Shown here: in pieces, positions 1,689 to 5,771 of the stretch
Layout: each line of letters begins with the position of its first letter
Numbering within the stretch: position 1 is the stretch's first letter
NCBI GenBank assembly: GCA_003695725.1
Contig: RFHX01000260.1
Location: 1 to 5,771 of the forward strand
Length of the DNA stretch: 5,771 nt
Source of the DNA: J061 sp003695725 [NCBI: Candidatus Schekmanbacteria bacterium]
Lineage (GTDB): Bacteria > Schekmanbacteria > GWA2-38-11
Direction: 5' to 3'
The notes under the pieces: model-generated
Databases searched by the model: none
What the model was told of the DNA's origin: nothing
The model's input: the letters and a program-made list of their open reading frames with translations, nothing else
Position numbers and translations under genes: made by a program

Positions 1689-2377
1689 AACTTATCCCCT
1701 TTTAAAATTGAATAACTCTCTTTTCCACAATTAAAAAGAAGGTCAACTATAGAAAGGTGTGAAAGAAAACTGCCGTATTGTTGAGGATAGACTGGATGTT
1801 TATATTCTTGAAAAATCACCTCTATTCCAGAATCTTCATACTTCTTAAAATTCATATAATCTTTTCCCCCTGCTCCTGCCAAATATTTGTTAGCGCCAAT
1901 TCTCTTACATATACCGATTAGTCTTTCATCTGCATCATCTGGTAAATCATCCATTTCTGATGAACTGAGTGTTTTGGTCTTAATTCCTAAAAATGACATA
2001 ATTTTTATTATAAGGGCAATATTTAAATCTTTCAGGTAAATAAATTCTTTTTCAATAATTTTTTTTATTTCAGGAAAATATTCCATAAAATAAGGAGCAG
2101 ATGAATAGTTAATTTCAAGGGCTTTGAGATGTTTTCTTTTCCAATGTTTTTTTCTGTCAATGGTAACTTCAAAAATCTTCTGAGGAAATCTATAATTCAC
2201 GGGCACTGTAAGCCACATTGAAGAGTTGGCTGTTTTAATCTTGTTTCTATTTTGCCACTCATTCTTTTTGTATTGGACAGTATCCAAAAAGACAAAGACA
2301 TCACAGCTTGAAATCTTGTCAAAATAACCAAGCCATGGCAAATATTGAGGTTGATGGACAGATACAATCATAATCAC
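1685..2377 (-). CDS. WbqC-like family protein
   Basis: A 230-residue protein of the WbqC-like family, named after a gene in an enterobacterial O-antigen cluster and often found in polysaccharide loci. The family has no firmly known reaction; a role in adding an acyl or aminoacyl group to an amino sugar is a hypothesis. Signatures are the N-terminal VHQPQYLPWLGYFDKI (7-22), DVFVFLDTVQYKKNEW (26-41) followed by NRNKIK (43-48), WLTVPV (55-60), the glycine-rich YLAGAGGKDYM (165-175), and the C-terminal HPVYPQQYGSFLSHLSIVDL (194-213). Length is typical and no membrane segment is visible. The GTG at 2377 overlaps the PHP gene's TGA as GTGA, the same arrangement as two other junctions in this operon. 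An in-frame ATG at 2371, preceded by AAGTGA, would give MIVSVHQPQ and is equally plausible. The gene end overlaps the deacetylase start by 4 nt, tying the two together. Confidence 0.9.
   Translation of the reverse strand: MIMIVSVHQPQYLPWLGYFDKISSCDVFVFLDTVQYKKNEWQNRNKIKTANSSMWLTVPVNYRFPQKIFEVTIDRKKHWKRKHLKALEINYSSAPYFMEYFPEIKKIIEKEFIYLKDLNIALIIKIMSFLGIKTKTLSSSEMDDLPDDADERLIGICKRIGANKYLAGAGGKDYMNFKKYEDSGIEVIFQEYKHPVYPQQYGSFLSHLSIVDLLFNCGKESYSILKGDKL
1696..1701 (-). promoter_or_regulatory. Shine-Dalgarno of the PIG-L deacetylase gene
   Basis: AAGGGG lies 7 nt before the ATG at 1688, within the final codons of the WbqC-like gene. With the ATGA overlap it supports both coupled and direct initiation at this start. 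Confidence 0.7.
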
Positions 2378-3822
2378 TTTGAATCGAGGGAAACATTATA
2401 AAAAATTGGATTGCTTACCGCTTTCCCCCCATCCTTAAAATTAACCATTAATCTAAAATAGCCTTTATCATTAGAGCCTGCAGAAAATAAAAACTTCTTT
2501 TCAAAGGGCAGCATTATCTCCTTTTTTATAAAAATTTTCCCATTTCTTACTATAGTTAAAAATGCCTCTTCTTTTTTCCCATACTTTTCACTAATCATAA
2601 CAGATAAAATCGCTTCTCCACTCACCTTTAATGATTCACCCATTTCTGCTTCATTAACCTGCTCCTTATCACTCAATAGAAACTCATCAATGACAATTTC
2701 TCCGGAATTGCTCTGCCTTACAGCATAACAACGACCATTCTTTAATGCTTGAATGATGCTTTTTTTTGACAAGTTATCTGTAATAAAAATAGTTTTAACT
2801 TCATCAATCTTCTCATCCTCATCTCCATGATAATCTATACCTCCAACCGTCCAAATTGGTTTATTCCTCTCCTTTCTTATAAAATCTAAAAGTAAGATAT
2901 CCCACTCTTTTCCTGCCTCAATCATTGTCGCAGTATCACGATATAAACCTTCAAAAGCGGTATAATTGTAGGTTTTTAGCAAATCTTCTACATATTTTGG
3001 CGTCAACATTCTTACACCGTTGATTTCTCTTTCTTTGTAAGATTCAGGATGTGCCCATATTGACAATATTTCCTTCTCGTTGGCGTAATCAATCAATTCC
3101 TGATAAGGAATCACTCCGGCATTACTTTCATATTGGTTAAAAAGCGTACTTTGGAAGGGATGATAGTTGATTATTAAAAGAAGTGATATAATCGAACATA
3201 TCAACCCAAAAGCTTTAGCAAATTTTTCTCCTGTAAAATAAAGCAAGAAAGACAATATAAAAGCAAACAAAAAGAAAAGAGCTTTAGGCGTAAGCTCTTT
3301 TACATATCGGAGAGAAAAACCGTTATGTATTACAGGCAAATCATCTATTTCCTCCGCACTATGAAAGCCAACAAGAAGAATATGCTTTTGCCAATTATTT
3401 GCCGTTAAATTTCCATTAAAAATACTCCCCGACCAAAAATAATGGGCTGTTGATTCAACGCCAGGTATAACAACTACATTTTTTCTTCTTTTATTGATAT
3501 CCTCAATCTCTTCAATATATTCAGATGCTCCTCTTTTCGTAACGCTTTGAAGTTCATAGTCTTTTTTAAATATATTCCGAAATGGAGGTATCCCATACTC
3601 AACCTTTATGACATCATGATCTGTCATCAATACGGCTTTAATGCCCTTCTCCTTCGCTTTATCAACTATTTCTTCAAGAGAATTTCTGCCTGTAGAAAAC
3701 TGCGAATGAAGATGAATGAGGCCGTCGATTTTCATTCCATAGCAAATAGAAATACAAAAGAGAAAAAGGGAAAGGAAAGAAAAAAAGTGGAAAAACAATT
3801 TTTTAATTGACACTCTATTCAT
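2374..3822 (-). CDS. Membrane-anchored PHP-domain metallohydrolase (CehA/McbA-like)
   Basis: A 482-residue protein with a PHP metal-dependent hydrolase domain, a fold that splits phosphoesters and sometimes other esters. Recognisable ligand motifs are HLHSQFSTG (H37, H39), MTDHD (D68, H69), PGVES (E123), KHILLVG (H147), WAHPES (H258) and GGIDYHG (D330, H332), in the order expected of the family. The Asp usual in the first motif (SDG) is replaced by T44. Residues 9-28 form a signal sequence or anchor; no proper lipobox is seen. A second hydrophobic pair lies at 180-197 and 203-220, with the basic turn GEKFAKA between. This puts both halves of the PHP domain on the outer face of the membrane. 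Residues 373-482 look like a beta-sandwich of the kind seen at the end of CehA/McbA-like PHP proteins, with LTIVRNGK and GYFRLMV and ending near SNPIFYNVS. The ATG at 3822 overlaps the preceding GT4 gene by 8 nt and has AAGGG 8 nt upstream. The substrate is unknown. Its place in a glycan operon hints at glycan or lipid-phosphate processing, but that is inference. Confidence 0.88.
   Translation of the reverse strand: MNRVSIKKLFFHFFSFLSLFLFCISICYGMKIDGLIHLHSQFSTGRNSLEEIVDKAKEKGIKAVLMTDHDVIKVEYGIPPFRNIFKKDYELQSVTKRGASEYIEEIEDINKRRKNVVVIPGVESTAHYFWSGSIFNGNLTANNWQKHILLVGFHSAEEIDDLPVIHNGFSLRYVKELTPKALFFLFAFILSFLLYFTGEKFAKAFGLICSIISLLLIINYHPFQSTLFNQYESNAGVIPYQELIDYANEKEILSIWAHPESYKEREINGVRMLTPKYVEDLLKTYNYTAFEGLYRDTATMIEAGKEWDILLLDFIRKERNKPIWTVGGIDYHGDEDEKIDEVKTIFITDNLSKKSIIQALKNGRCYAVRQSNSGEIVIDEFLLSDKEQVNEAEMGESLKVSGEAILSVMISEKYGKKEEAFLTIVRNGKIFIKKEIMLPFEKKFLFSAGSNDKGYFRLMVNFKDGGKAVSNPIFYNVSLDSK
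3163..3285 (-). other. Two-helix membrane hairpin inside the PHP domain
   Basis: These codons give residues 180-220 of the PHP protein: two hydrophobic runs, ALFFLFAFILSFLLYFT and FGLICSIISLLLIINY, separated by the short basic turn GEKFAKA. They lie after ligands H37 to H147 and before H258, D330 and H332. With an N-terminal anchor oriented N-in, the basic turn would sit in the cytoplasm by the positive-inside rule and both flanking catalytic segments would sit outside. Topology is predicted from hydrophobicity by eye only. Confidence 0.75.
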
Positions 3823-4990
3823 TAACTAATCCCTTTTCTTTCAATAACTTCCTGTAGAGGTTTTCTATTTTTTCAACCATTCTTTTTACACTGAATGAAT
3901 CGGCTCTTTTCTGTCCCATCAAGCCCATTCTATTGCGCAATTCCTTGTTAAAAAACAATTGTTCTATTTTTTCTGCAATGCTTCTTTCATCTTCAGGCGG
4001 AATGACAAATCCCGTTAGACCATCCTCGATTATCTCTCTTACGCCTCCCACATCTGTCCCTATAACAGGAAGACCCGCTGCCATTGCTTCAACAATGACC
4101 TTTCCCATTCCCTCATTGACAGATGAAAGCACATAGAGGTCTAAAGAATAAAGAAAAGCTCTGCAATCGCTTTGCCAAGGAATAAAAAAAAATTTTTTTT
4201 CAAGCCCATATTCTAAGACAAGTTTTTTCAAAGATTTCTCCAATTCACCTTCGCCGGCAAGCATAAAATAGGCGTTATCAATCTTTGAAGAAACTATTTT
4301 TGCGGCTTTTATAAAATATTCAAACCCCTTGACTTTTACAAACCTCCCCATACTGCCCACAACGAAGGAGTTAGGAGGAATACGATTCTTTTTTACGAAT
4401 GGTCTTTCATTTTTTTGCGCATAGTTTTTAATGGAATCAACATCTACACCGCTATGAATTACAGAGATCTTTTTCTCATCTCCTACTTTGAAGGAAATAT
4501 GTTCTTTCTTCCCTCTTTCTGTAAGGCAAATCAGATTGTCTGTTATGGACGCTGTAATTCTTTCTATGAATATAAATATCCATGAAATTATTTTCCCATA
4601 ATAACCATAAAAAATGTGGCCATGAGGGGTGTGCACAATTACAGGAACACCGGTAAATTTGGCTGCCCATCTTCCGAGTATTCCTGCTTTTGAGCTATGA
4701 GTGTGGACAATATGGTAATTATTTTTACTGATAAAAGAATATATCTTAAAAAATGCCTTAACATCTTTGAGGGGATTAATTTCTCTTACCAAATCTTCAA
4801 TATTGAAAAAAACCTCAATATTTTTTTTTACAGAAGGCAAATATTTTTCATCAGGGTTTTTCGTCATTCCGTACAAAATAGAAGATTCATATCTTTCATT
4901 GTCAAGATTTTTTACAGTTAGAAGAGTATTTTCAGATGAACCGCCCTTGTCAAGGCGGGTGATAATGTGAAGCACCTTTATCCTTTTCAT
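3815..4990 (-). CDS. GT4-family glycosyltransferase
   Basis: Complete 391-residue GT4 enzyme, the usual length for the family. The N-terminal Rossmann domain opens with KVLHIITRLDKGGSSENTL, whose double glycine (16-17) is the conserved loop before helix 1. The acceptor side carries HIVHTHSSKAGILGRWAA (93-110) and HTPHGH (120-125). The donor domain starts near ISVIHSGVDVDSI (175-187) and shows GSMGRFVKVKGFEYFIKA with K221, the AGEGEL loop (245-250) and the EX7E motif EGMGKVIVE (E293 and E301), then AMAAGLPVIGTDVGGVREI. The ATG at 4990 is chosen because the family's N-terminus begins there and it overlaps the upstream TGA as ATGA. No Shine-Dalgarno lies within about 20 nt, so translation probably depends on coupling to the gene before it. 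The hydrophobic helix at 133-143 (KIISWIFIFIE) is a likely membrane-contact surface. The sugar transferred is unknown. The gene holds two long A/T homopolymers (4184-4200, 4821-4829). Confidence 0.95.
   Translation of the reverse strand: MKRIKVLHIITRLDKGGSSENTLLTVKNLDNERYESSILYGMTKNPDEKYLPSVKKNIEVFFNIEDLVREINPLKDVKAFFKIYSFISKNNYHIVHTHSSKAGILGRWAAKFTGVPVIVHTPHGHIFYGYYGKIISWIFIFIERITASITDNLICLTERGKKEHISFKVGDEKKISVIHSGVDVDSIKNYAQKNERPFVKKNRIPPNSFVVGSMGRFVKVKGFEYFIKAAKIVSSKIDNAYFMLAGEGELEKSLKKLVLEYGLEKKFFFIPWQSDCRAFLYSLDLYVLSSVNEGMGKVIVEAMAAGLPVIGTDVGGVREIIEDGLTGFVIPPEDERSIAEKIEQLFFNKELRNRMGLMGQKRADSFSVKRMVEKIENLYRKLLKEKGLVNE
3831..3835 (-). promoter_or_regulatory. Shine-Dalgarno of the PHP-hydrolase gene
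   Basis: AAGGG lies 8 nt before the ATG at 3822, inside the last codons of the preceding GT4 gene. It supports this ATG, which precedes the hydrophobic leader, rather than the internal Met30. Confidence 0.65.
4184..4200 (-). repeat. A8T9 homopolymer block inside the second GT4 gene
   Basis: On the coding strand eight A are followed by nine T, encoding KKFFF (residues 265-269). The reading frame is intact here. Such a block is a possible site of polymerase slippage, but several shorter A/T runs occur elsewhere in the window and the whole region is A+T-rich, so it may have no function. Confidence 0.4.
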
Positions 4991-5771
4991 AAAATAGATT
5001 TATAAATAGTTAAAAGCTTCTCTGCAGACTTTTCCCATGTATAATGCTCTTCAACTACTCTTCTCCCTTTTTTTGAAATTTCATCATAATATTCCTTTTT
5101 GTTCTTATATATATCAATCCACTGCAAAATACCTTCTGCAAGTGAATCAACCTCAGTTGAAGAAAAAATCAGCTTTTTATCTACCTTAGATAATATTTCA
5201 GGTGTCGCTCCTGCAGGGGTGCCAAGGACAGGTACTCCTGATGCAAGAGCTTCAACTGTCACAAGGCCGAACCCTTCCTGCTCAACTGTAGGAAGCAAAA
5301 AATAGTCTGACATTCTGTAAAAATCAGAAAGGTTGTTCTCATCGATATAGCCTGCAAAAATAATCAAATCGGAAAGACCTTCAGAATGTGCCATATTTTC
5401 AAGTTTTGATTTGAGTGGACCGCTTCCGCCGATTACAAAAAGAGATGATGTACAATGATTTTTGATTTTTTTTATTGCCTTGATAAGGTTTTCAAGTCCC
5501 ATACGAGGTTCCATATTTCTTAAAGTCGAAAATATTATTGATTCAGCAGGCAGATTAAATTTTTTTCTAAGCATCTGCTTATTATTCACTGGACAAAATC
5601 TGTCTTCATTGACACCACCGGGAATAATCTTGATTTTTGAATCATCTATTGATGCAAATTTCTTTAGTCTCTCTGATGTATATCTGCTCAATACTCTTAT
5701 GAGAGATGACTTTCTGAAATTATATTTTTCCATATATTTAATCAAAGGAATGACAAAGGTTCTATCTGTAA
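4987..5771 (-). CDS. GT4-family glycosyltransferase, C-terminal part (5' end outside window)
   Basis: Retaining GT-B glycosyltransferase of family GT4, which transfers a sugar from a nucleotide sugar to a glycan acceptor on the cytoplasmic side of the membrane. The frame stays open to the window edge, giving 260 visible residues, so the N-terminal acceptor domain is cut off. A TTG at 5745 could be read as a start, but the frame continues upstream as TDRTFVIP and a 250-residue GT4 would lack half the fold, so it is not the true start. Visible signatures are the linker IIPGGVNEDRF, the donor-domain opening LRNMEPRMGLENLI (basic residues usually contacting the nucleotide phosphates), the loop FVIGGSGPL, and the EX7E motif EGFGLVTVE (visible residues 165-173) followed by ALASGVPVLGTPAGATPEI. 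The last helices, with YTWEKSAEKL, are typical of the family end. Its TGA stop overlaps the next gene's ATG (ATGA). Donor and acceptor cannot be told from sequence. Confidence 0.93.
   Translation of the reverse strand, partial: TDRTFVIPLIKYMEKYNFRKSSLIRVLSRYTSERLKKFASIDDSKIKIIPGGVNEDRFCPVNNKQMLRKKFNLPAESIIFSTLRNMEPRMGLENLIKAIKKIKNHCTSSLFVIGGSGPLKSKLENMAHSEGLSDLIIFAGYIDENNLSDFYRMSDYFLLPTVEQEGFGLVTVEALASGVPVLGTPAGATPEILSKVDKKLIFSSTEVDSLAEGILQWIDIYKNKKEYYDEISKKGRRVVEEHYTWEKSAEKLLTIYKSIL

Follow-up and report, generated by a model that had tools for sequence, protein, structure and literature searches.

The CpsB/YwqE PHP tyrosine phosphatases are soluble, cytoplasmic proteins. Together with Cap8C, they combine the PHP fold with a role in polysaccharide loci, as described in the cited part of PMC10816263. 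Exported PHP-type enzymes are also known: according to the passages cited, the phosphodiesterase Sb-PDE of Sphingobium TCM1 is exported by a signal peptide whose cleavage is supported by N-terminal sequencing (PMC5460133), and McbA, the namesake of the CehA/McbA family, is a periplasmic carbaryl hydrolase (PMC11302072). The PHP metal centre has been tabulated as nine ligand positions, H, H, D/H, H, E, H, C/H, D/N and H, the third of which is the Asp of motif I (ligand table of PMC3666897). Here we describe a 482-residue PHP-fold protein encoded at positions 2374–3822 of the minus strand of contig RFHX01000260.1 (C260) from Candidatus Schekmanbacteria bacterium (assembly GCA_003695725.1; 2.77 Mb in 374 contigs, 98% complete). 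The stretch analysed, henceforth referred to as the window, is this one whole contig of 5,771 nucleotides. The explanation we favour, with slightly more confidence than doubt, is that this PHP-fold protein is exported, takes part in exopolysaccharide assembly and is tied to the inner membrane by a hairpin lying between metal ligands six (H147) and seven (H258).

The best NCBIfam family for the window protein was CehA/McbA (NF038032), with a score of 61.2 bits that lies under the cut-off of 80. Eight other proteins were scored with the same model, seven of them at 45.6–66.9 bits, and only the outgroup protein L014 (127) was above the cut-off. The window protein shares with this family a PHP-type domain followed by a C-terminal domain that closes with an SNP[IV]F motif, and a profile comparison (hhalign) of the family alignment A3 with L014 extended over 353 columns at a probability of 99.3, with a gap where the hairpin sits. 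L014 differs in having all nine ligands and no internal hairpin. The membrane segment of McbA is also differently placed, being described as N-terminal in the cited passages of PMC8292978 and PMC11302072, while Sb-PDE is reported as a homodimer with nine conserved ligands, and the cited part of that source does not mention a hairpin (PMC5460133). The window protein is related to the exported CehA/McbA metallohydrolases but divergent from them, and it carries a hairpin. Two further PHP proteins are described in the cited passages of other papers, one a phosphoesterase that stands with an HD phosphoesterase next to a polyisoprenoid-linked gene (PMC12419801) and one on a clone from a carbamate screen (PMC5730166). 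The initial annotation had regarded the present arrangement as a different design from the cytoplasmic PHP proteins linked to polysaccharides; since Sb-PDE and McbA are already exported, it is the internal hairpin that is unusual and not the location. No description of a membrane hairpin dividing a PHP domain was found in the open-licence literature searched.

The gene is a single open frame on the minus strand, as initially annotated, and a Pfam PHP match covers residues 37–125 (PF02811, 3e-9, 37.9 bits against a cut-off of 26.4). The same model was matched at E ≤ 0.001 by 20 of the 45 members of alignment A3. The two hydrophobic helices expected at 180–220 were recovered by hydropathy as segments 176–201 and 199–223, with best 19-residue means of 1.96 and 2.11, and further N-terminal hydrophobic segments were observed between residues 6 and 36. 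Shuffling of residues 30–482 gave two segments of mean ≥ 1.9 within 45 residues in 20 of 5000 trials, so that the hydrophobic pair alone offers modest support. An AlphaFold2 model built from 45 sequences (mean predicted local distance difference test (pLDDT) 94, predicted template modelling score (pTM) 0.90) contains the three anticipated helices at residues 4–23, 174–197 and 200–219. The first is a putative export helix, either signal peptide or anchor (3754–3813), which corresponds to a hydrophobic segment in homologues; the other two form the hairpin (residues 174–219, 3166–3303), which is delimited by hydropathy, the model, the homologues and the gap in L014.

The hairpin separates the two parts of the PHP domain. 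The first part (residues 29–151, 3370–3738) holds H37, H39, H69, E123 and H147, with T44 at the place of the third ligand, and the second part (residues 230–372, 2707–3135), placed by structural alignment to 2anu, holds H258, D330 and H332. Structural comparison of the model with 2anu gave Z 19.5 at 2.7 Å over 214 of 224 residues, spanning model residues 29 to 372, and comparison with 3e38 gave Z 18.7; the computed fold thus has the PHP barrel predicted as a whole across the hairpin insertion. A sequence search of the PDB with the window protein returned short PHP motif matches only. The remaining C-terminal residues 373–480 (2383–2706) are modelled as a beta-sandwich resembling Wzt carbohydrate-binding domains, with borderline scores against Wzt-type structures (5hno, Z 8.0; 6o14, Z 7.7).

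From the charge pattern and the export helix we infer both topology and location. The density of lysine and arginine (K/R) per residue was 0.226 in the hairpin loop and 0.095 and 0.061 in the outer flanks. Across 90 hairpin loops, every one contained at least one K or R, 74 contained no D or E, and 13 were long (22–32 residues with 4–9 K/R each). A hydrophobic N-terminal segment was present in 83 of the 88 rows with enough N-terminus, with preceding K/R in 80 of the 88. Because the hairpin loop is rich in K/R, both PHP parts should face the periplasm under the positive-inside rule; the hairpin would bring the chain back to the same side, so that the two parts lie together, and the export helix would place them outside. 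The hairpin probably spans the membrane, and the protein probably sits on the outer face of the inner membrane. The initial proposal of a hairpin between the ligands of an exported protein, with both parts on one side, is consistent with the K/R-rich loop, the export helix and the predicted fold, all of these being predictions. The proposed three membrane crossings agree with the three helices and would be true only if the N-terminal helix stays uncleaved. The ICYG-MK sequence following that helix could be a signal-peptidase site; an A-x-A motif occurs in 33 of the 88 rows and not in the window protein.

Two alternatives bear on this arrangement. Segment 174–219 may not span the membrane, acting instead as a clip, re-entrant or amphipathic, that lies along the outer leaflet, or as a soluble packing element; we regard this as improbable. 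The separation of about two residues between the helices of the AlphaFold2 model would suit such a segment, but the helices are 24 and 20 residues long with a mean hydropathy of about 2 and a charged tip, and the 13 homologues with long K/R-rich inter-helix loops argue for a spanning hairpin. Still less credit is given to a cytoplasmic phosphotyrosine phosphatase of the CpsB/YwqE type that would act on a Wzc-type kinase from its own locus, with the helix and hairpin as mere anchors. Both the PHP fold and a Wzc-like gene in the G001 locus are compatible with this function; however, the charge bias puts the hairpin tip inside and the domain outside, CehA/McbA is the best NCBIfam family, the profile homology is to hairpin-less L014, which has an N-terminal hydrophobic stretch, and the ligands of the family are eroded. 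Unlike CpsB, YwqE and Cap8C, the window protein is predicted to be exported, bears a hairpin and is nearest to CehA/McbA, and its predicted export helix and conserved hairpin depart from the soluble, cytoplasmic character of those enzymes.

Conservation of the hairpin was computed across the family. A scan of GTDB-species genomes yielded 254 relatives. The analysis took in the best 80 of them, whose records name Nitrospinota, Scalindua/Brocadiaceae, Desulfobacterota-type bacteria, Aminicenantes, Omnitrophota, Elusimicrobia and others. The hairpin count comprised 91 rows (the window, 10 further genome rows and the 80 from the scan), with segments placed in a fixed alignment stretch and with the frameshifted L009 and the outgroup L013 and L014 removed beforehand; two pairs, L003/L069 and L004/L101, are identical on the tree columns. 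Retention of the hairpin in homologues, which the initial annotation had set as a check on its proposal, was observed in 90 of the 91 rows, the window included; L012 is the single case of the hairpin-less homologue that the annotation had named as contrary evidence. A profile search at E ≤ 1e-20 matched 31 of 386 genomes, counting hairpin-less CehA/McbA-like proteins (G043, G188, G320). Eighteen further loci from this search were scanned more loosely for the helix pair, and 14 pass the same cut of 1.1 as applied to the 91 rows. Of the other four, L130 scores slightly too low (1.0), L143 is interrupted in that region, and the last two, L147 and L148, are CehA/McbA-like proteins with no hairpin. 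Ten more profile-search loci were repeats of genomes already counted. Querying viral contigs with the window protein alone gave 59 pattern matches and no relative, and tblastn against plasmid records gave no match to it.

The same survey speaks to the notion that the family is decaying and that the hairpin PHP genes are relics hitch-hiking in operons, which we find barely credible. Ligands have been lost in many ways, a frame change or deletion affects the hairpin region of the gene in G050 (L115) and G267 (L149), and in L074 the PHP gene stops early, beyond the hairpin region; sequencing error is possible in all three. A long open frame is nevertheless present in 79 of the 80 relatives' loci (31–40% identity, several reaching a contig end) and 24 columns are invariant across 45 sequences, which together point to selection on the PHP gene. 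Separately, L112 (G041:C73, 864–2210) is an open, in-frame homologue lacking the hairpin that lies between GT4 and WbqC genes in the operon; either this copy naturally has no hairpin or the hairpin was lost in assembly. Two or more hairpin-less CehA/McbA-like copies were also observed near each other on one contig at L013 (G043) and at L151 (G188).

The metal centre, compared with the hairpin, is poorly kept. All the ligands initially assigned to the window protein were located (H37, H39, H69, E123, H147, H258, D330 and H332) apart from D68, which is outside both the nine-ligand table (PMC3666897) and the eight ligands mutated in PolX in the cited part of PMC6616362. Alignment to 2anu and PolX places the third ligand at the Asp of the ‘SDG’ motif, and the residue at that place in the window is T44, within motif I (HLHSQFST, residues 37–44, 3691–3714); this assignment draws on the alignment of PDB chains, the nine-ligand table and the family counts. 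Ligands were counted over 94 rows, consisting of 92 family rows (hairpin-less L012 and L120 included) and the outgroup L013 and L014; the motif I columns are missing from L073 and L107. Both outgroup rows are complete, whereas none of the 92 family rows has all nine ligands, and the idea that the window's branch has all of its ligands intact was ruled out by the same table. Nine family rows, including that of the window, retain eight of the nine. In eight of these, again with the window, the single gap is at position 44, where the residue is Ser or Thr; among them is L002, the sister of the window protein (45–47% identical, support 100 in the 94-row tree). The H37/H39 pair is replaced by DxR in 36 rows and by DxK in 26 (62 of 92), and HxH is kept in 20.

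We take the three metal sites to be grouped as in E. coli YcdX, with site A at 37, 39, 123 and 330, site B at 44, 69 and 332, and site C at 123, 147 and 258. Under this grouping the 92 rows divide into C only (30), B+C (24), B only (15), A+C (14), A only (3) and none (6); sites A and B never occur together, and the window is A+C. Motif I was compared with position 44 in 90 rows, giving 19 HxH rows with no D/E at 44, 1 HxH row with D/E, 59 non-HxH rows with D/E and 11 non-HxH rows with no D/E. These counts show a tie between HxH and loss of D/E at 44, which was set aside because there were too few independent pairs for a test; the states also largely track two tree branches. In the 94-row tree, the 20 HxH family rows all fall, together with six further rows, within one branch of 26 (Shimodaira–Hasegawa-like approximate likelihood ratio test (SH-aLRT) 91), and the DxR and DxK rows lie outside it; the root is weakly supported in this quick tree. 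Loss of ligands with retention of the fold is seen in the PHP domain of E. coli Pol III alpha, in which the domain belongs to a polymerase and has no membrane insertion, and Arg is the commonest replacement at six of the nine ligand positions of variant PHP domains (both from the relevant part of PMC3666897).

These counts bear on whether the protein is an enzyme. A working periplasmic metal hydrolase, cutting a phosphoester, ester or amide of a lipid-linked or growing polysaccharide and positioned at its substrate by the hairpin, is possible but, in our judgement, rather unlikely. It would agree with the eight ligands kept by the window and seven other rows, sister L002 included, with the CehA/McbA match at 61 bits, and with the existence of exported PHP-type enzymes such as Sb-PDE (PMC5460133) and the carbamate hydrolase McbA (PMC11302072), as characterized in the passages cited. 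Position 3 is, however, Ser or Thr in all eight such rows, the complete set is found nowhere in the family, and in M. tuberculosis DnaE1 the ligand change D23N abolished exonuclease activity (cited part of PMC5636811), D23 presumably being the third ligand position. The initially annotated PHP hydrolase with assembled ligands therefore stands as to its eight ligand positions and not as to a full centre. That the protein acts as an enzyme is doubtful across the family and possible in the window. As H37/H39/E123/D330 and E123/H147/H258 remain in the window's branch, that branch may keep two metals, and some hydrolysis is plausible there.

The window holds six minus-strand genes whose ends overlap or abut. 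Upstream of the PHP gene are two family 4 glycosyltransferases (GT4), one at 3815–4990 (Pfam; best NCBIfam model TIGR03088, below cut-off) and a second at 4987–5769, truncated at its 5′ end by the contig border and scoring best with the NCBIfam model BshA, again below cut-off. Downstream are a WbqC family protein (1685–2377; Pfam WbqC 2e-80) that overlaps the PHP stop codon, a PIG-L deacetylase (1065–1688; best NCBIfam model BshB1, 115 bits, under the cut-off of 182.5) and a DegT/DnrJ/EryC1/StrS aminotransferase (3–1064; open reading frame and Pfam) whose 3′ end is cut by the contig. The order GT4-PHP-WbqC-PIG-L-DegT-WecA occurs also in G001, and the window shows it up to DegT, where the contig ends. 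In a neighbour table of 80 loci, computed within eight genes by a crude purpose-made gene caller and clustering, GT4 was found at 39, WbqC at 34, PIG-L at 29, DegT at 23, WecA-like at 23 and AsnB-like at 20. At least two of GT4, WbqC, PIG-L, DegT and WecA-like were present at 40 of the 80, distributed by motif type as 14 of 14 HxH, 23 of 36 DxR, 0 of 26 DxK and 3 of 4 other loci; a WbqC gene lies close to 9 of the 14 HxH loci. Twelve genomes carrying a family member were compared, of which three have no WbqC and nine have exactly one. With the exception of G050, this single copy is placed no more than about 600 bases from the PHP gene.

The same run in G001 also contains XrtA-associated-like ATPase, HD domain, and Wza-, Wzc- and Wzy_C-type genes, the XrtA-type labels resting on model scores under cut-off. 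Exosortase (PF09721) is present in 5 of the 12 genomes with a family member and was not found in the 98% complete genome of the window, for which an exosortase-dependent (XrtA/PEP-CTERM) system was accordingly rejected.

Several observations weigh against the explanation favoured here. The alignment is weighted to near relatives, being drawn from the best 80 of 254. L012, which is 36% identical, is without the hairpin yet retains the operon. At 25 of the 80 loci, all in the Nitrospinota-type DxK branch and accounting for 25 of the 26 DxK loci, the gene adjoins a response regulator or Val-tRNA synthetase. The unbroken order GT4-PHP-WbqC-PIG-L-DegT-WecA was found in only three of the 80 (L033, L048, L069); WbqC immediately follows PHP in 19 loci, and a GT4 gene immediately precedes PHP in 23. 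WbqC was not found in G008, G094 and G096, in which a family member is present, and the Wzt likeness of the beta-sandwich (Z about 8) may reflect a common fold only.

On balance, an exported, membrane-tied PHP-fold protein of glycan assembly remains our preferred explanation. Export would be started by the N-terminal helix, and the first PHP part would emerge in the periplasm. The chain would then dip through the membrane and back, leaving a short positive tip in the cytoplasm, before the second PHP part completes the domain and is followed by the beta-sandwich, which may bind glycan. The PHP cleft would thereby lie near the membrane surface, the site of undecaprenyl-linked glycan assembly. 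Different members of the family have lost different parts of the three-metal centre, yet the fold, the hairpin and often the glycan genes persist. Since fold and hairpin outlast the metal centre, the shared job is more likely to be the holding or sorting of nascent glycan than canonical phosphodiester cleavage. Its likely role is that of an accessory to glycan assembly, tethered to the membrane on the periplasmic side and in many cases non-canonical or non-catalytic. A widely conserved metallohydrolase barrel would thus tolerate a membrane hairpin between its metal-binding positions, and the persistence of that hairpin beyond the metal site provides a testable model of enzyme folds turning into membrane-surface scaffolds. 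The gene neighbourhoods of the family further indicate that a set of exopolysaccharide genes recurs in Nitrospinota, anammox bacteria, Desulfobacterota relatives, Aminicenantes and others.

The adjoining WbqC protein, for which a described function was not found in the literature searched, was modelled from 34 sequences (pLDDT 95). Its closest structural match was BshC (4wbd; Z 14.9, 3.2 Å, 221 residues aligned; next row 8.5), with a Foldseek E-value of only 1.8e-3. Homology of WbqC to BshC by sequence was rejected, as profile comparison found no match (hhalign probability 0.1), and a BshC-family gene was not found in the window's genome. ‘WbqC’ together with ‘PHP domain’ was likewise not found in the open-licence literature searched. 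The predicted BshC-like fold offers a structural lead for WbqC and hints at bacillithiol-like chemistry. The bacillithiol pathway proceeds through BshA, BshB and BshC (cited part of PMC4360819), and the neighbours resemble it in comprising GT4 (best model BshA), PIG-L (BshB1) and WbqC (BshC-like predicted fold). They differ in that the BshA and BshB1 scores are below cut-off, WbqC has no BshC profile match, and the context is polysaccharide.

It is a tentative and somewhat improbable proposal that the set of GT4, PHP, WbqC, PIG-L, DegT and WecA-like genes carries out such chemistry on an exopolysaccharide. GT4 and the BshB-like deacetylase would expose a free amine on an N-acetylglucosamine (GlcNAc)-type residue, to which the BshC-like WbqC would join an amino acid or similar acyl group. 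Once flipped, the glycan would be taken up at the outer face by the PHP protein with its hairpin; the trinuclear centre of this protein would have been remodelled separately in each lineage to give a site for binding or for altered hydrolysis.

Minor observations concern individual branches. At seven anammox-type loci, a small protein is encoded just downstream of the PHP gene on the opposite strand (for example L045:11444–11833 and L046:11611–12033), and the L045 copy has no Pfam match. L040 (labelled Nitrosomonadaceae) and L087 (labelled Emcibacteraceae) are nested in the Nitrospina-type branch with similar gene order, so that their contigs may be misassigned in bins. The DxK-type Nitrospinota homologues L041, L044, L070, L096, L101 and others have a longer C-terminus, which in L096, the one homologue scanned, shows a weak, sub-threshold match to a bacterial SH3 domain.

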